The position numbers were made by a program, and so were the translations under genes. From assembly GCA_025060105.1 (NCBI GenBank), contig JANXCS010000006.1:62001-126000 (forward strand): a stretch of DNA of 64,000 bases. Reading direction: 5' to 3'. The notes beneath the pieces are model-generated. The model did not search any database and was not told the DNA's origin. It saw nothing but the letters and a program-made list of their open reading frames with translations. This DNA is from Pseudothermotoga sp. (GTDB taxonomy: Bacteria > Thermotogota > Thermotogae > Thermotogales > DSM-5069). This document shows, piece by piece, positions 11,911 through 54,081 of this stretch. Each line of letters opens with the position of its first letter. The first letter of the stretch is position 1.

Positions 11911-12900
11911 ATGAAGAGGTTCAAAGTTTTCGTCACACGAAAGATCCTAGAAGAGGGTTTGAACATGCTCAGAGAAAAATTCGATGTCGAAGTGAGTGAT
12001 TATGACGGAGTCATTCCAAGGAGAATGCTTCTGGAAAAAGTCAAAGGAGTCGATGCCATACTGAGTTTGCTCACCGATACGATAGATGCCGAAGTGATGG
12101 ATGCAGCTGGGCCCAACTTGAAAATCGTAGCGAACTACGCTGTGGGGTACAACAACATCGATGTGGAGGAAGCCACAAAGCGCGGTATTTTGGTCACAAA
12201 CACACCCGGGGTACTCACAGAAACCACGGCAGATTTGGCTTGGGCCTTGATGATGGCCATAGCTCGAAGGATCGTTGAAGCGGACAGATTTGTCAGAGAA
12301 GGAAAATTCCGTGGTTGGGAACCCATGCTTCTGCTTGGAACGGATGTTTATGGAGCAACACTTGGTATCGTCGGTTTTGGACGTATAGGTCAAGCAATGG
12401 CTCGGAGAGCTCTAGGATTCAATATGAAGGTTCTATACTACGATAACGCCAGAGTGCCTGAACAAATAGAAAAAGAATTGAAGGCTACATACGTCGATCT
12501 TCCAACGCTTCTGAAAGAATCCGATTTCGTTTCGTTACATGTTCCCCTAACGAAAGAAACTCACCATTTAATCGGTGAAAAAGAGCTCAGGATGATGAAG
12601 AGGGGAGCTTATTTGATCAACACAGCTAGAGGTCCTGTCGTGGACGAAAAAGCTTTGGTGAAGGCCCTGAAGGAAGGTTGGATCAAGGGAGCCGCACTCG
12701 ACGTGTTCGAAAATGAACCCGAAGTTGAACCAGAATTGCTGAAACTCGATAACGTTGTCCTCGCACCACACATTGCCTCCGCATCTTACGCAACGAGATC
12801 CAGAATGTCCATCATGGTGGCAGAAAACATCATCAAAGCCTTGAATGGTGAAGTCCCACCGAATTTAGTCAACCCAGAAGTATTACAAAAAAGAAAGTGA
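11911..12900 (+). CDS. D-2-hydroxyacid dehydrogenase, glyoxylate/hydroxypyruvate reductase type
   Basis: A 329-aa NAD(P)-dependent dehydrogenase, closest in motif to glyoxylate reductase GyaR. It shows [20 protein letters not shown], the Rossmann loop [33 protein letters not shown] with the catalytic Arg, ALDVFENEP with Glu, and APHIASAS with the catalytic His. ATG 11911 follows AAGGAGG at 11896-11902. It is the last gene of the long + strand run and is closed by a strong bidirectional terminator. It differs clearly from the dehydrogenase at 8278-9255, so the two probably act on different keto acids, perhaps a C2-C3 product such as glyoxylate and a longer chain. Confidence 0.88.
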
Positions 12901-12923
12901 GGGCTCTCAGCCCTCACTTTTTT
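12894..12923. terminator. Bidirectional terminator between the hydroxyacid cluster and nhaC
   Basis: AAAGTGAGGGCT (12894-12905) pairs fully with AGCCCTCACTTT (12909-12920) around CTC, with TTTTTT on the right and an A-rich left flank that gives a T-run on the other strand. It ends the + strand cluster and the convergent nhaC transcript. Confidence 0.88.
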
Positions 12924-22351: not shown

Positions 22352-22380
22352 TTGACAAAATTCGATCGGAATAGTAAAAT
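22352..22380 (+). promoter_or_regulatory. Strong sigma-A promoter of the sugar ABC operon
   Basis: TTGACA (22352-22357), a 17-base spacer and TAAAAT (22375-22380) form a near-consensus promoter. Transcription would begin near 22387, about 100 bases ahead of the binding-protein gene, leaving a leader that contains a hairpin. Confidence 0.75.
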
Positions 22381-22398
22381 GTTTTCGGAGATCAGGAG

Positions 22399-22436
22399 AG
22401 GCCATATCTCAAGTTCGAGGTATGGCCTTTCATTTT
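22399..22436 (+). terminator. Leader hairpin with U-rich tail (possible attenuator)
   Basis: AGGCCATATCTC (22399-22410) pairs with GAGGTATGGCCT (22417-22428), 12 pairs with one G-U, around AAGTTC, then TTTCATTTTT. It lies about 12 bases after the predicted transcription start and before the coding region. It could be an attenuator, a 5' stabiliser, or the end of a very short transcript. I see no clear competing antiterminator. Confidence 0.65.
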
Positions 22437-22486
22437 TAAGATTTCCTTAAAGAAGATCGATACCATAGTGTGGGGAGGTGTGTGGT

Positions 22487-23785
22487 GTGAGGAAGCTGTT
22501 TGTTTTGTTTCTAGTGCTCTTGACGGTTTTTGCTCTAGCGAAGGTTAAGATTCAGTTCTGGCACGCGATGGGTGGTTGGCGTATCGAGGTCATTCAGAAC
22601 ATGGTGAACGAATTCATGAAACTGAATCCGGACATCGAAGTGGAGGTACAATACGTCGGCAGCTACGAGGAGATCTTGGCGAAGACTGTGGCTGCTGTCA
22701 AAGCAGGAACGCCACCTCATGTGGTTCAGTTGAACGAGATCAGCACACAGAAGATGATCGACAGCGGTGTGATCGTACCAGTGCAAGATTTCATAGACAA
22801 AGATCCTACCTTCGACGTTGGTTTGTTCTTACCACAGGTTTTGAACTATTACCGTGTCGGTGGAAAACTCTATTCGATGCCTTGGAATACCTCCACACCG
22901 TTGCTTTATTACAACAAGACACTGTTCAAAGAAGTTGGGCTTGATCCGAACGATCCACCCACCACGTTCAGTGAACTGATCGAAGCATGCAGAAAGCTTG
23001 TGAAGAAGGATGAAAAGGGTAATATAGTCAGAACAGGAATCACTTGGCCTCTGTACTCTTGGTTCTTCGAACAATACATGGCTTTACAGAATCAACCTCT
23101 CGTGGACAACAACAACGGGAGAACCGGAAAAGCCACTAAAGTTGTGTTCAACAACGATGCTGGTTTGCGGTTCTTTGAACTCTGGGATAAGCTCACTAAG
23201 GAAGGGCTCATGATCAATACGAAGCGAGCGGATTGGACGGCTGCGAGACAGTTGTTCATATCACAAACTGTTGGTATGTTGATTTCCTCAACTTCTGATG
23301 TTGCGTTACTCATGAATGAATCTAAGAAACAAGGTTTTGAACTTGGAACTGCATTCTTACCATTGCCGGATGGTGTACAGCGTGGTGGAGTCATCATAGG
23401 TGGAGGTAGTTTATGGATCATCCAGCAGAAGAACAGATCGGAAGTTGAGGCAGCATGGAAACTCGTCAAGTACCTCGCAGAACCAGGACCACAGATAGTT
23501 TGGCACAAAGCCACAGGTTATTATCCCATCAGAGTCGATGCAATACACACTCTCCATGTACAAGGTTATTATGCTGAAAATCCTCATCATTTGACGGCCA
23601 TGCTCCAACTACTCACCGGTGTACAAAATTACAACACTCAAGGGGCGATCATAGGAGCATTCCCCGAGGTTCGTGATGCTATAGAATCTGCCGCTGAAAA
23701 GATGATCTCTGGAGCTATGACGCCTAAGCAAGCTTTGTCTGAAGCCGAGAGGAACGCAAACAAAGCGATTAAAGAATACTTCTGA
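22487..23785 (+). CDS. Sugar ABC transporter substrate-binding protein (SBP family 1, UgpB-like)
   Basis: A 432-aa exported binding protein of the family-1 type used for sugars, oligosaccharides or glycerol-3-phosphate. The signal peptide is about residues 1-18 (MRKLFVLFLVLLTVFALA), and the mature part starts KVKIQFWHAMGGWRIEVIQN. PWNTSTPLLYYNKTLFKEVG and the late GGGSLWIIQ are typical. I prefer GTG 22487, eight bases after GGGGAGG, over GTG 22478. Two CUT1 permease genes follow, but no ATPase gene is nearby, so a shared ATPase such as an MsmX type is presumably encoded elsewhere. The ligand is unknown. Confidence 0.9.
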   Translation: MRKLFVLFLVLLTVFALAKVKIQFWHAMGGWRIEVIQNMVNEFMKLNPDIEVEVQYVGSYEEILAKTVAAVKAGTPPHVVQLNEISTQKMIDSGVIVPVQDFIDKDPTFDVGLFLPQVLNYYRVGGKLYSMPWNTSTPLLYYNKTLFKEVGLDPNDPPTTFSELIEACRKLVKKDEKGNIVRTGITWPLYSWFFEQYMALQNQPLVDNNNGRTGKATKVVFNNDAGLRFFELWDKLTKEGLMINTKRADWTAARQLFISQTVGMLISSTSDVALLMNESKKQGFELGTAFLPLPDGVQRGGVIIGGGSLWIIQQKNRSEVEAAWKLVKYLAEPGPQIVWHKATGYYPIRVDAIHTLHVQGYYAENPHHLTAMLQLLTGVQNYNTQGAIIGAFPEVRDAIESAAEKMISGAMTPKQALSEAERNANKAIKEYF

Positions 23786-23826: not shown

Positions 23827-24696
23827 ATGAGAAAAAAACTGCTACCTTACGTTCTGCTTCTACCCACTTTTCTGATAATCGTTCTTTTCATATACCTTCC
23901 CGCTTATGAATCATTCGTGAACAGCTTCATGAGGATCTCTGTCTTTGGTAACAGGAGGATGTTTGTCGGTTTTAGAAATTACACAACGTTGTTCCAAGAT
24001 CCAGATTATCTCGCCGCGATTCGCTTCACGGTGATTTACACTCTCGTCACTGTTGTGATATCTATATTTTTGTCTTTCTTCCTCGCGCTCCTTTTGGATC
24101 AGAAAGTACCTGGTTCAAAGATATATAGAACTTTAATTTTTGCACCCTATGCCGTTTCTTACGCCATAGCTGGTGCCTTGTGGGGATTCTTACTCAACCC
24201 TGTTGTTGGACATGTGAACTATCTCGCTAGAATTTTTTTCGGTGTGCAAGCCAACTGGTTGACTGCTAGGCCCTATGCGATCTACGCACTCATTTTTGCT
24301 TCTGTGTGGAAAACTCTACCATTCAATGTGATTTTTTATCTAGCCGCACTGCAGAATATACCCTCAGAGCTCATTGAAGCGAGCATCATAGATGGTGCGA
24401 ATGCTTGGCGCAGGATCTGGGATCTGATCTTTCCGCTGGTTTCACCCATAACTTTTTACCTAGTTATAATGAGTATCATATCTGCCACTTTTCAATCGTT
24501 CGCGATCATCGACGTTATGACTAAGGGAGGTCCAGGGGGCTACACGACGAATTTGATTTATAAGCTCTACATGGACGGTTTCAGATTCCAAAAAATGGGA
24601 TTGGCAGCGGCTCAGAATACGATACTCTTTGTAATGATGATCGTTGTGACCTTTGTTTACTTCAAATATGGTCAGCAGAGGGTACATTATCAATGA
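23827..24696 (+). CDS. Sugar ABC transporter permease (UgpA/MalF type)
   Basis: A 289-aa CUT1 permease with six predicted helices. N-terminal helix LLPYVLLLPTFLIIVLFIYL, the motif FVGFRNYTTLFQDP, and the EAA loop EASIIDGANAWRRIWDLIFP, then LVSPITFYL. ATG 23827 follows TTGGAGG; the frame extends nine codons upstream through the hairpin. Partner of the following permease. Confidence 0.92.
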   Translation: MRKKLLPYVLLLPTFLIIVLFIYLPAYESFVNSFMRISVFGNRRMFVGFRNYTTLFQDPDYLAAIRFTVIYTLVTVVISIFLSFFLALLLDQKVPGSKIYRTLIFAPYAVSYAIAGALWGFLLNPVVGHVNYLARIFFGVQANWLTARPYAIYALIFASVWKTLPFNVIFYLAALQNIPSELIEASIIDGANAWRRIWDLIFPLVSPITFYLVIMSIISATFQSFAIIDVMTKGGPGGYTTNLIYKLYMDGFRFQKMGLAAAQNTILFVMMIVVTFVYFKYGQQRVHYQ

Positions 24697-24706
24697 GGTG
24701 AGAAAA

Positions 24707-25546
24707 ATGCGGCTTTCAACGAAGAAATTTACATTGACAGTCGTTTATGAGTTTCTTTTGATATTCGCAAGCCTTACAATGTTTGCACCAATACTTTTAG
24801 CACTGATAATGAGTATCCAGCCTCCCGAATTTGTTTTCTCTTATCCACCGAGGTTCTTGCCAAAGGGTTTCTTCGTTGAAAATTACTTTCAAGCTTTCAA
24901 AATTGTTCCCTTCGCGAGGATGATGTTGAACAGCCTATTGATCGCTGTTTCCATAACGTTTGGAAAGCTCATCACTGGAACTTTAGCAGCCTACGCTTAT
25001 TCGAACTTCCGCTTCAGAGGGTCGAGGGTGTCTTTCTATATTTTGCTCGCCACGCTTTTCATACCAGCTGAGATCGTTTTGATCGTTCCACTGTTTCAAA
25101 TCATCAGCAAACTTGGTTGGGTCAATACCTACTGGGCGATGATGATACCGTTCATGGCCAGTGCGACCAACACCTTTCTTTTGAGACAGCATTTTTTGAC
25201 TATACCGAAGGAGTTCAAAGATGCTGCGATGATAGATGGTGCCACCGCAATGCAATATTTGACGAAAATAGTTATTCCCCTGTCCCGTCCGATGCTCGCG
25301 GGTGCCAGTATAATAAACTTCACATACGCTTGGAACATGTACCTTTGGCCGATGATCGTAGCCATGGAGGATAGAATGAAAACGGTTCAGGTGGCGATCA
25401 ACATGATCATAAACGCCGAATCTTCAAACAATTGGGGTATCATCATGGCTGCGACTATCGTGGCGCTGATGCCAACTTTGCTGTTGTTTTTCTTCCTGCA
25501 AGATCTCTTCGTTAAATCGTTGACGGGAAGTGGAATAAAAGGTTGA
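24707..25546 (+). CDS. Sugar ABC transporter permease (UgpE/MalG type)
   Basis: A 279-aa CUT1 permease. MSIQPPEFVFSYPPRFLPKG and NYFQAFKIVPFARMMLNSLL near the N-terminus and the EAA loop DAAMIDGATAMQYLTKIVIP are the MalG-type signatures. ATG 24707 follows GAGGTG and lies ten bases after the previous stop; the longer open frame overlaps the first permease and lacks a ribosome site. Last gene of this short, enzyme-free operon. Confidence 0.92.
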   Translation: MRLSTKKFTLTVVYEFLLIFASLTMFAPILLALIMSIQPPEFVFSYPPRFLPKGFFVENYFQAFKIVPFARMMLNSLLIAVSITFGKLITGTLAAYAYSNFRFRGSRVSFYILLATLFIPAEIVLIVPLFQIISKLGWVNTYWAMMIPFMASATNTFLLRQHFLTIPKEFKDAAMIDGATAMQYLTKIVIPLSRPMLAGASIINFTYAWNMYLWPMIVAMEDRMKTVQVAINMIINAESSNNWGIIMAATIVALMPTLLLFFFLQDLFVKSLTGSGIKG

Positions 25547-25586: not shown

Positions 25587-25616
25587 TTGACCGAAGGACT
25601 GCCGTGCCTCTATAAT
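25587..25616 (+). promoter_or_regulatory. Sigma-A promoter of the second peptide ABC operon
   Basis: TTGACC (25587-25592), an 18-base spacer and TATAAT (25611-25616) precede the SLH-type binding-protein gene by about 30 bases. Confidence 0.7.
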
Positions 25617-25647: not shown

Positions 25648-27738
25648 ATGAAAAAAGTACCTTTCTTGGTGCTAACTCTGCTTGCCTGCACGATCTTTGC
25701 GCAAATCAGTCTTCAGGAAGCTGCGCCTGTGATTCAAAAACTCGGAATTTTGCAAAAGATCGACGATTCGCCTCTTAGTTACGATGAATTTCGAGCGGCG
25801 GTAGCGAAGGCATTCCCGGGTAAAGAAAACTTGGTCAAAAAGGGTTCCGAACCTGTTCTGAGGAAAGATTTCATCTTGATTTTGGTGAAGGTACTCGGTC
25901 TTGAACAAGAGGCAGCTAAATTCAAAGAAATATGCACGCTCGCCAACGATGAAGATAAAGTTCCACCAGAATCGGTCGGAGCATTCACCCTCGCATTCAG
26001 AAGTGACAGACAACTTTTGGATTATCGTTATGGACACCTGCTCGAACCCTTCTCGCCCATCACGAAAGCCGAGGCTGCAAGATCTTTCTACATGGCCCTT
26101 TATCCACCGAAGCGGGGAGGAACAATAACGACGGCGGTTGTAGCTAACCCGAAAGGTTTCAACACGCTCTTCACTTCCTCTGGTTTGACTTGGACTATAT
26201 GCAACATCATTGGTGATGGCTACACCGGAACCGATGACAATGGGTTCTATCATCCAAGGATGATCAAAAGACTTCCAAGTTTAGAAAATGGTTTGATCAA
26301 GATCAATCCAAACGGATCGGTGAGCATAACCTTTGAGTTGAGGAAGGGTATGAAGTGGCACGATGGTCATCCTGTAACGGCACGCGATGCCAAATTCCAA
26401 TGGGAAGTGATGATTTCAGATGCACCCATCACATCGAACTATTTTGAAAAATTGGTCCAACGTGTGGACGTCATAGATGATTACACCTTCACGATACATC
26501 TGCCACATCCGGTACCTGGCATGGAGCTTGGTTCCTCAGTCTATGCGTATTACTACGGTTGGTTCCAGTTACCCGAGCACATCTTCAGAGAAGATTTCGA
26601 AAAGGCTAAAGCGACTGGCAAGTGGGATGAATTCGTGCAGAAAGTTATGTTCAATCCGATCATGACTGGTCCTTACAAGTTCAAAGAGTACGTCGAAGGC
26701 CAATACATAGTTTTGGAAGCTTTTGATGGATACTACATGGGTAGACCAAACATCGATCGAATAGTCATGAAAATCATACCAGATCAAGACGTGATATTCG
26801 CTTCTACTCTGAAGGGCGAGATCGATTTTGGAAGATACACACTCAATTTGCAGCAGAGTCTGCAACTTCAGAAAGAGAAAGGTGACATCTTCAACGTTTA
26901 CTTCACACCCAACGTGGCACTTTGGACGCTGGATTTGAATTTCAGAGATCCAAACGATCTGTCCAAACCACACCCACTGTTCTCAGATGTTAGAGTCAGG
27001 CAAGCCATGCTGTATGCGATCGATAGGCAACAACTTAACGAAGTTGTCTTCCAAGGTCTTGGTCGGATAGTAGATACGTGGATCACCGAGCTTCACATCA
27101 TGAGAGATGCTTTGAAGAGCAACAAGATAAAGAAGTATCCGTACGATCCAAAGAAAGCTGAGCAGTTGCTCACAGAAGCTGGATGGAAGAAGAACAGACA
27201 GGGTTTACTCGAAAAGGATGGAAAAATCTTTGAGTTCACGATGATCGCTGGAGCAGGTAACCCACAGACGGAGTTGATGGCCCAGCTCATTCAAGCGATG
27301 TTGAAAAAGGTTGGCATTTCGATGAAAATAGAATTGAAACCGCCGTTGGTGATTTGGGAAGAAGCTCCCATGGGTAAGTTCGACGCGTGGCTCACCGGTT
27401 GGGGATATGGGGTGAGCGATGAGGCGTTGAACTACTGGGGTAGCGACATGATTCCTTCTGAAGAGAACAACTGGGGTGGAACCAACTACACTGGTTGGTC
27501 TAATCCAAGGAACGATGAATTGATGCGACTGATGGCTAAGGAAGTCGATTACAAGAAGAGGGTACAACTTTACGAAGAACATTTCGCACTCTGGACGAAC
27601 GATTTACCAGTTCTACCACTCATTTCTGATCCTACCCCACATTTTGCTAAGAAATACATAAAGAGTTTCAATTCCACGTATGATAGCGGTCTTGGATGGA
27701 TCATTTACAACTGGTACATCGACACTGAACAACGCTGA
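25648..27738 (+). CDS. Peptide/oligosaccharide-binding protein (SBP family 5) with SLH-like N-terminal domain
   Basis: A 696-aa exported binding protein, roughly 150-180 residues longer than usual. Signal peptide about 1-18; an SLH-like region at about 22-151, with two imperfect units (APVIQKLGILQKIDDSPLSY and SYDEFRAAVAKAF; then LLEPFSPITKAEAARSFYMA); then the family-5 domain from about residue 157 (PKRGGTITTAVVANPKGFN, RKGMKWHDGHPVTARDAKFQ). The added domain may tether the protein to the cell envelope or sheath, since SLH domains bind cell-wall polymers. ATG 25648 follows GAGGGGG. Ligand may be a peptide or, as for several Thermotoga family-5 proteins, an oligosaccharide; the M14 peptidase next door favours peptides. 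Confidence 0.88.
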   Translation: MKKVPFLVLTLLACTIFAQISLQEAAPVIQKLGILQKIDDSPLSYDEFRAAVAKAFPGKENLVKKGSEPVLRKDFILILVKVLGLEQEAAKFKEICTLANDEDKVPPESVGAFTLAFRSDRQLLDYRYGHLLEPFSPITKAEAARSFYMALYPPKRGGTITTAVVANPKGFNTLFTSSGLTWTICNIIGDGYTGTDDNGFYHPRMIKRLPSLENGLIKINPNGSVSITFELRKGMKWHDGHPVTARDAKFQWEVMISDAPITSNYFEKLVQRVDVIDDYTFTIHLPHPVPGMELGSSVYAYYYGWFQLPEHIFREDFEKAKATGKWDEFVQKVMFNPIMTGPYKFKEYVEGQYIVLEAFDGYYMGRPNIDRIVMKIIPDQDVIFASTLKGEIDFGRYTLNLQQSLQLQKEKGDIFNVYFTPNVALWTLDLNFRDPNDLSKPHPLFSDVRVRQAMLYAIDRQQLNEVVFQGLGRIVDTWITELHIMRDALKSNKIKKYPYDPKKAEQLLTEAGWKKNRQGLLEKDGKIFEFTMIAGAGNPQTELMAQLIQAMLKKVGISMKIELKPPLVIWEEAPMGKFDAWLTGWGYGVSDEALNYWGSDMIPSEENNWGGTNYTGWSNPRNDELMRLMAKEVDYKKRVQLYEEHFALWTNDLPVLPLISDPTPHFAKKYIKSFNSTYDSGLGWIIYNWYIDTEQR

Positions 27739-53163: not shown

Positions 53164-54081
53164 ATGAAGATAGGTTTCTTAACTGTGGCAATGGGTAACA
53201 CTAAGCTTGAAGAGATCGTTGAATGGTCGAGTAAGGTGGGTTTTGAAACGTTAGAGATCGCGACCTGGCCTCTCATCAATGAAAGAGACTTTTCCTCCAC
53301 GACGATAGATGTTGAAAAGTTTGATAAAAAGGAAGCAGAACGTGTGAAAGCTCTCTTTGAAAAACATGGTCTCACCGTGTCATCTTTGGCTTACTACGAC
53401 AACAATTTGGATGCAAACCTTGAAAAAAGAGCGAGAGTCAATCAGCATCTCAAAAAAGTTATAGACGCAGCACATTTTCTTGGTGTAGAGCTCGTAGGCA
53501 CTTTCATAGGGAGAGATATCACCAAGAGTGTTGAAGAAAACTTGAAAGAGTTTGAGAAGGTCTTCAAACCTTTGATAGCTTACGCGGAAAGCAAGAACGT
53601 AAGATTAATGATAGAAAATTGTCCGATGGTTGGTTGGCAAGCTGAAGAAAGGATAGGCAATATCTTCTACTCACCGGAACTTTGGAGAGAAATATTCAGG
53701 ATCACACCCGATTCTTTTGGAATCAACCTCGATCCATCGCATCTGTATTGGTTGGGCATAGATTATCTGAAGGTGGTGGAAGAATTCGCTAGTAGGATCT
53801 TCCATGTGCACGCGAAAGACGTGGAATTAAAGAGAAACATACTTCACGAGCAAAGTATCTTTGGTCACTATGGTACCAACGCACACGGAAAGAGTTGGTG
53901 GGTTTATAGATTGCCCGGTTTTGGAGAGATCGATTGGTCGAGTTTCATCACAAACCTCAAGAAAGTGGGGTACGACTTCGTCGTGAGTATAGAACACGAA
54001 GATCCAGTGTGGGGTGGAGATCTGGAGAAATCGAAAAAAGGTCTTTTGATGGGGTTGCATTTTCTTAAGAAGTTCGTTTGA
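53164..54081 (+). CDS. Sugar phosphate isomerase/epimerase family protein
   Basis: A 305-aa AP-endonuclease-2-type TIM barrel. Metal-ligand positions are likely in RLMIENCPM (Glu), GINLDPSHLYW (Asp, His), FHVHAKDVE (His) and VVSIEHEDP (Glu). ATG 53164 follows GGAGG at 53152-53156. Downstream of a sugar importer and co-directional with a Gfo/Idh/MocA oxidoreductase, it may isomerise, hydrate or eliminate a keto-sugar intermediate. A strong terminator closes the operon. Confidence 0.83.
   Translation: MKIGFLTVAMGNTKLEEIVEWSSKVGFETLEIATWPLINERDFSSTTIDVEKFDKKEAERVKALFEKHGLTVSSLAYYDNNLDANLEKRARVNQHLKKVIDAAHFLGVELVGTFIGRDITKSVEENLKEFEKVFKPLIAYAESKNVRLMIENCPMVGWQAEERIGNIFYSPELWREIFRITPDSFGINLDPSHLYWLGIDYLKVVEEFASRIFHVHAKDVELKRNILHEQSIFGHYGTNAHGKSWWVYRLPGFGEIDWSSFITNLKKVGYDFVVSIEHEDPVWGGDLEKSKKGLLMGLHFLKKFV

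Follow-up and report, generated by a model that had tools for sequence, protein, structure and literature searches.

A Probable GlpP-Dependent Antitermination Leader Preceding a Putative Glycerol-3-Phosphate Transporter Operon of Pseudothermotoga sp.

Introduction

The leader region that precedes an ABC-transporter operon in the stretch of Pseudothermotoga sp. DNA analyzed here (64,000 nucleotides, hereafter called the window) is most probably, with a likelihood of about 0.9, a GlpP-dependent antitermination leader controlling the glycerol-3-phosphate (G3P) transporter operon ugpB-ugpA-ugpE. It is built around a tandem GGAGA motif followed by a terminator hairpin, an element which is conserved and covaries among related genomes, which recurs in front of other genes of glycerol and G3P metabolism and whose occurrence is linked to that of GlpP. 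A preliminary description of the region had singled out the feature and suggested an attenuator as one of its possible roles; the feature was correctly recognized and the attenuator is now strongly supported by the conserved element and its compensatory changes, while the GGAGA-TCA-GGAGA core had been missed.

In Bacillus subtilis, GlpP and G3P act on terminators situated immediately downstream of the promoter, according to an excerpt of PMC9604022. For glpFK, the relevant passage of PMC6225680 states that GlpP keeps the terminator from forming, and an extract from PMC7430163 has GlpP binding "the antiterminator" and stabilizing the glpD mRNA. As far as a section of PMC3750489 goes, the GlpP regulon of the group to which the window organism belongs had been the subject of no comparative-genomics study as of 2013, and, among the open-licence PMC papers listed in searches on GlpP, none was recognized as describing a motif or a regulon of this protein for Thermotogota. 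While the antitermination mechanism is already known, the Thermotogota regulon seems to be new, together with what appear to be three other novelties: the GGAGA-N3-GGAGA motif with its covarying antiterminator across phyla, a reduced form devoid of one antiterminator arm, and a hydrolase as an additional target.

Organization of the Leader and Its Operon

The features of the leader, the operon and the related sites of the same genome are collected in Table 1.

Table 1. Features of the ugpB leader and operon in the window, and accepted matches of the covariance model R1 in the same genome.
Feature	Position	Strand	Basis or remark
Promoter-like site TTGACA-N17-TAAAAT	22352..22380	+	11/12 consensus matches
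Promoter boxes TTGACA and TAAAAT, 17-nt spacer	22352-22357; 22375-22380	+	consensus match alone
GGAGA-TCA-GGAGA tandem motif, proposed GlpP-binding site	22387..22399	+	conserved in leaders of Thermotoga relatives and Bacillota
Terminator 5' arm (arm B), GGCCATATCTC	22400..22410	+	pairs with 22417-22427
Terminator loop AAGTTC	22411..22416	+	sequence and fold
Terminator 3' arm (arm C), GAGGTATGGCC	22417..22427	+	one G-U pair with arm B; fold, covariation
U-rich tail, TTTCATTTTT	22428..22437	+	potential pairing of its first four bases with GAGA 22396-22399
ugpB-like gene, G3P-binding protein	22487..23785	+	GTG start picked via ortholog alignment and ribosome-binding site GGGGAGGTG; longer reading frame starts at 22478
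ugpA-like gene, permease	23827..24696	+	start inferred
ugpE-like gene, permease	24707..25546	+	start inferred
R1 site before glpK-glpP	L051:11164-11221		50.2 bits
R1 site before GlpA-like G3P-dehydrogenase operon	L051:6003-6058		42.8 bits
R1 site before ugpB	window leader		33.4 bits
R1 site before membrane alpha/beta-hydrolase	L168:394-450		31.3 bits

The promoter had been presented as the best of the window. Its near-consensus quality is confirmed, but the first rank is shared with a second site, TTGACC-N18-TATAAT at 25587, these two being the only 11/12 sites on both strands of the 64 kb under the criteria of the script. From the position of the -10 box, the transcript would start at about 22386-22388, i.e., at or beside the first GGAGA, and the stem begins 12-14 nt further on, which agrees with the 12-pair stem located about 12 bases past the start in the preliminary description. 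The pairing even extends to 15 contiguous pairs (22396-22431) followed by ATTTTT, so that the second GGAGA doubles as the 5' base of the extended stem. The hairpin stands about 50 nt ahead of the transporter gene. The folding energy of the leader (22387-22480) amounts to -35.8 kcal/mol, with z = -5.1 against shuffled sequences, and the 52-nt piece restricted to the element yields z = -6.9. An additional pairing between GGAGATC and a GATTTCC located beyond the U-tract was dropped after inspection of a few orthologs by eye. None of the 4227 Rfam families reached its gathering score in the window, and a search for tRNA and tmRNA returned nothing there.

Taken as classes, promoter-like and terminator-like matches occur at chance level between 17000 and 28000 (16 versus 15.8 expected and 10 versus 9.5 expected, respectively), so that a fortuitous promoter-like site next to an unrelated terminator deserves to be considered, both classes being no commoner than in shuffles. 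Among the ten terminator-like matches, however, the hairpin of the leader stands out by its 15 pairs, the next best having 8, and by its conservation. The gene upstream of the leader encodes a diaminopimelate dehydrogenase and is divergently oriented, hence there is no upstream unit for the hairpin to terminate. Conservation, covariation and gene context, as detailed below, contradict a fortuitous association, to which we attach a next to negligible probability. Another 15-pair hairpin, the only other one with an equal number of pairs, is found at 12891-12923 of the window with T-rich flanks on both strands, and is possibly a two-way terminator.

The best NCBIfam matches of the three products of the operon are the Ugp models, yet the scores fall under the curated cut-offs. 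Among solved structures, the three closest to the binding protein are G3P-binding UgpB proteins and, owing to this UgpB-like character of the sequence, G3P is the likely substrate of the transporter. The gene behind the hairpin, announced as a sugar-binding-protein gene, does encode a binding protein, but a UgpB-like one that is not simply devoted to sugars; the candidate sugars envisaged as ligands of the leader should accordingly give way to G3P, sensed by GlpP. Further downstream, the promoter-like site at 25587-25616 precedes a family-5 solute-binding-protein gene starting at 25648, which suggests that this gene forms a unit apart from ugpBAE.

Distribution of the Element in Thermotoga Relatives

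Orthologs of ugpB (at least 51% identity) occur in 39 of the 61 genomes compared, and the element is found upstream of ugpB in 20 of these 39. The leaders of the orthologs contain GGAGA, a spacer of three or more nucleotides, and GGAGA or GAGA right before the hairpins, the stems of which vary in sequence with a constant pairing. Lack of stem conservation in orthologous leaders, which had been named as a result that would speak against the feature, is not what is observed, as the stem is maintained by compensatory changes.

A covariance model, R1, was built on eight ugpB leaders with the window copy excluded, using an alignment (A3) with a hand-written structure; several stems were misaligned in the first alignment (A1). 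Since it was trained on ugpB leaders alone, R1 contains no information from glp operons. Run on the genome of the window, it produced seven matches at E<=1, four of which are full-length and were accepted (Table 1). The three others comprise two partial matches and a full-length match of 20.9 bits (window 54013-54066), which lies inside a reading frame of 311 codons and was rejected as due to chance.

Over the 61 genomes, 66 full-length matches were obtained at E<=0.003, and 64 of them precede one of four gene families. The dehydrogenase gene accounts for 33 matches, ugpB for 13, the hydrolase gene for 11 and glpK for 6; of the remaining three, L195 precedes a ugpB assigned solely from its position, L172 lies at a contig end, and L174 (genome G037) corresponds to a plain terminator with no glp gene downstream and was discarded as fortuitous. 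Three matches at the same threshold that cover only model positions 16-53 (G040, G047, G049) were left out and taken as generic terminators. The dehydrogenase, an FAD-dependent oxidoreductase, comes nearest to the models of type 2 G3P oxidase and GlpA without reaching their cut-offs, and the glpK product exceeds the cut-off of the GlpK model. With 33 bits, the window copy scores below the other ugpB leaders of family f1, except for L003 and L004 (26.5 and 27.7).

Occurrence in Bacillota

In Bacillota, for which antitermination by GlpP is established, the same element was looked for in 80 loci, namely the top 80 from a larger set resulting from a GlpP-based scan of named genomes. Within these loci, 121 of the 125 R1 matches obtained at E<=10 are on the same strand as glpP (counted by eye), the lowest E being 1e-4, and the leader sequences display GGAGA-N3-GGAGA ahead of terminators. 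An independent scan for the motif plus a hairpin recovered 84 sites on the glpP strand and 0 on the other, distributed over 61 of the best 80 loci, and found nothing in the remaining 19. These 84 sites are followed by 50 glpD-like, 19 glpF-like, 10 glpP, 3 hydrolase-like and 1 glpQ-like genes and by 1 other gene, which is probably glpD read in a wrong frame; the names of the gene clusters were assigned from the sequences. Because the loci were picked by GlpP homology, glp genes are expected in the vicinity, and the informative part of the result resides in the strand bias and in the position directly before genes. A comparison with Rfam of seven additional loci gave no family at their glp leaders and one unrelated cspA match.

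Terminator and Antiterminator Pairing

Among 65 distinct sequences, the terminator helix exhibits changes on both sides at 9 of its 10 pairs, and all five measures of covariation lie beyond 500 of 500 shuffles. The alignment was fed by 55 of 78 sources, those with R1 matches taken as real, and the 99.7% of paired cells leans towards the structure of the model, to which the alignment was fitted.

In most copies, an upstream arm A is able to pair with the 5' arm of the terminator, arm B, and to form an antiterminator, a pairing that is not known to be indispensable. Examples of such A:B pairs are GGGUAUGG with CCGUACCC, GGGUUG with CAACCC, and GUAAGGU with ACCUUAU. The native pairing score of 13.9 exceeds the 10.7 obtained when the arms are swapped between sites (sd 0.36, reached in 0/500; 69 sites). 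The test set consists of 73 sites minus the match at window 54013, L174 and the identical copies L170 and L082. For the 47 sites with a 13-nt motif, changes on both sides affect 8 of 8 pairs and the covariation score is reached by none of 500 shuffles; shuffles equal the number of pairs changed on both sides in 5/500 cases and the further pair types in 30/500, against 0/500 for the other three measures. The register of arm A, derived from the same sites and controlled by swapping and sliding, gives 67% of paired positions versus 35-43% in slid registers (47 sites). In Bacillota, the arm is weaker and shifted by two positions (55% paired at the best slide versus 30-41%, 56 sites with a 13-nt motif), and no clear arm register emerges for the 15 sites whose motif is 15 nt long. 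Four A:B hairpins range from -6.9 to -11.6 kcal/mol and four terminators from -19 to -29 kcal/mol (37 C); folded alone, two of the four A:B hairpins clearly surpass their shuffles (z -3.6 and -2.6), the others reaching -1.5 and -0.7. Since the terminators are more stable, termination should be the default state, and a protein would be needed for the antiterminator to form.

Arm A is absent from the window copy, which has an arm-pairing score of 5 versus the native mean over 69 sites given above. Low arm scores characterize 10 of these 69 sites, namely the window copy and nine copies of family f2 (the Thermotoga-type family, with 13 sites in the set), all nine of which keep the motif and the gene context. 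A window-specific antiterminator pairing GAGAU 22388-22392 with AUCUC 22406-22410 was rejected, being no better than shuffles (z -0.86).

The absence of arm A could be read as a loss of signal control in the window copy, leaving a hairpin that serves mainly to stabilize the ugp mRNA at its 5' end, or else a partial terminator acting constitutively, all the more so as G3P-bound GlpP is said, in an extract from PMC7430163, to stabilize also the glpD mRNA of B. subtilis. This copy nevertheless retains U-tract, GGAGA repeat and terminator alike, and the 9 of 13 f2 copies that likewise lack a good arm A preserve motif and gene context, which makes such a residual role very improbable. In view of the glpD case, a stabilizing effect in addition to antitermination is conceivable.

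Distribution Relative to GlpP and CsrA

GlpP (PF04309) scores above the cut-off in 46 of the 61 genomes. The window genome possesses a single copy (G000:C9:44100-44618), located directly after glpK, and it reaches 218 bits, the cut-off being 27. Of the genomes assessed, 20 of 29 with GlpP carry the element ahead of ugpB, versus 0 of 8 without GlpP (Fisher p = 6e-4, the genomes being treated without correction for phylogeny). Two of the 39 genomes with a ugpB ortholog were omitted from this comparison, G013, whose motif with a long-looped hairpin is missed by R1 and positive by the motif-plus-hairpin scan, and G044, interrupted by a contig end. Absence was judged from R1 (E<=3) and from the motif-plus-hairpin scan over 330 nt upstream. 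For three of the 20 positives (G011, G027, G053), the assignment is based on motif and hairpin; R1 gives 15.0 and 14.4 bits for two of them and G027 is not listed. G040, with a single PF04309 match under the cut-off, was scored as GlpP-negative.

The association also holds inside families. In f9, G060 has both GlpP and the element before ugpB and G050 has neither; the same applies to G046 and G058, respectively, in f5; in f2, G029 and G031 are devoid of both, and G011, G021, G025, G027 and G033 possess both. Counter-cases exist: the element is missing upstream of ugpB in nine GlpP-positive genomes, seven of which belong to f3 and two to f4, and in G005, which is 71% complete, GlpP is not detected and the element precedes the dehydrogenase gene. 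In G031, which has no GlpP, a GGAGA-N4-GGAGA match occurs before ugpB, but it was rejected because the following hairpin is weak (score 14), A-T-rich and without a U-run, the scores of five rescanned positives being 24-30, except for G053 at 23; counting it as positive would change the comparison to 20/29 versus 1/8.

These distributions bear on the possibility of a protein-free riboswitch, in which the leader RNA would itself bind G3P or another metabolite and toggle between the A:B and B:C hairpins. An unpaired conserved core beside the terminator, and the alternative pairing of most copies, would suit such a device. The core is however limited to about 10 bases, the element matches no Rfam family and precedes known GlpP-regulon genes in Bacillota, the alternative hairpin of the window copy does not exceed chance, and the 8 of 8 genomes without GlpP above the cut-off contain no accepted element before ugpB, so that we hold a riboswitch to be highly unlikely.

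Another RNA-binding protein could read the GGA motifs and control termination or mRNA stability. CsrA is the chief candidate, as its targets typically carry GGA-containing motifs and the protein prefers GGA; such motifs are present in the window leader and CsrA was found in 55 of the 61 genomes, the window genome included. Its distribution does not track the element, however: G056, where CsrA was not found, possesses GlpP as well as the element ahead of both ugpB and the dehydrogenase gene, and CsrA occurs in 7 of the 8 GlpP-negative ugpB genomes, where no accepted element is found. The matches of the element moreover sort to glycerol and G3P genes, and CsrA was rejected as the binder, which leaves such a protein hardly any likelihood beside GlpP.

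Several genomes of genus g5 harbor a second, divergent GlpP paralog near the first one on the opposite strand. That of G021 (L052:11643-12140) matches 1vkf, the T. maritima protein, with 344.6 bits across the whole stretch searched.

Proposed Mode of Action and Comparison with Known Systems

By analogy with B. subtilis, GlpP would be the binder, G3P the signal and readthrough the outcome. RNA polymerase would start at about 22387 and, when G3P is scarce, the hairpin 22396-22431 would form and stop transcription after about 50 nt. The tiny RNA of about 50 bases contemplated in the preliminary description would be an expected by-product of termination and not the purpose of the leader. When G3P accumulates, the GlpP-G3P complex would bind the GGAGA-N3-GGAGA repeat with which the nascent transcript begins and compete with closure of the terminator stem, allowing the polymerase to continue into ugpBAE. 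As the second GGAGA forms the base of this stem, the arrangement suggests that the bound protein could block termination without any alternative hairpin. In most of the related leaders, the A:B antiterminator hairpin would present the GGAGA repeat in its loop. With an element located before glpK-glpP, GlpP would boost its own synthesis, and the window leader, given its low R1 score and missing arm A, could be a weakened copy. GGAGA-N3-GGAGA represents a sequence-level candidate for the GlpP site and the antiterminator is supported by covariation, neither of them matching Rfam, and the arm-less copies provide a test case in nature for the need of GlpP for an alternative hairpin.

As in the glpD, glpFK and glpTQ leaders of B. 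subtilis, to judge from an excerpt of PMC9604022, the terminator follows the promoter immediately. Both systems concern glycerol and G3P genes, including a G3P transporter, and GlpP is encoded here in the glpK operon. The GGAGA-N3-GGAGA ahead of the terminator is shared with the Bacillota leaders compared, which come from members other than B. subtilis 168. The window case differs from the B. subtilis system in belonging to another phylum, in having an ABC-type Ugp importer as its target, in the inclusion of an alpha/beta-hydrolase in the regulon and in the missing antiterminator arm of the window copy.

Other leaders rely on related principles. With the BglG/LicT proteins acting on RAT sequences, a carbon-sensing protein holds an alternative hairpin that blocks the leader terminator, as an extract from PMC7430163 puts it, and the A:B arrangement of most copies would work in a similar way; the proteins nevertheless belong to another family and, in the same extract (PMC7430163), their activity is PTS-controlled. 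HutP and TRAP also are metabolite-loaded proteins reading short purine-rich repeats near a terminator, in the wording available from PMC7430163, but the proteins and genes differ, and two GGAGA units occur here versus clusters of NAG or G/UAG triplets.

The Membrane Alpha/Beta-Hydrolase

The fourth target of the element in the window genome is a protein of about 546 aa (L168:464-2101; L168:394-2101 with the leader included; G000:C1) that starts with a hydrophobic stretch and carries an alpha/beta-hydrolase domain in its N-terminal part, and for which neither a close curated family nor a close solved relative was found. The hydrolase gene stands behind the element in Thermotoga relatives (L169-L171, L200-L203, L054:7191, L177:452, L207) as well as in Bacillota (L129:1792, L144:3532, L163:3819), and the family looks the same. 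Its presence under the element in both phyla suggests a lipase or esterase supplying glycerol, the substrate being a guess. The hydrolase is an unexpected member of the glycerol regulon and seems to be a new target; as it is placed under one element in two phyla, it provides a concrete candidate for a glycerol-supplying enzyme.

A more general proposal may be advanced tentatively, with odds somewhat short of even. A single GlpP RNA switch would serve Bacillota and Thermotogota, consisting of an antiterminator hairpin which overlaps the terminator and exposes GGAGA-N3-GGAGA in its loop. The ugp leader of the window and most Thermotoga-type leaders would be a reduced form devoid of an alternative hairpin, and GlpP-G3P, placed on the initial bases of the transcript, would there directly block the base of the terminator. 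Both regulons would include the membrane-anchored alpha/beta-hydrolase, which would free glycerol from lipids or other glycerol esters.

Compared by eye, the window hairpin (22400-22427) is closer to the hydrolase leaders of relatives (L169, L171, L200, L054; GGCCATACCTC or CCATATCTC types) than to the ugpB leaders of the closest sisters (L002-L004), which are of CCAACC types. This resemblance may reflect recombination between leaders.
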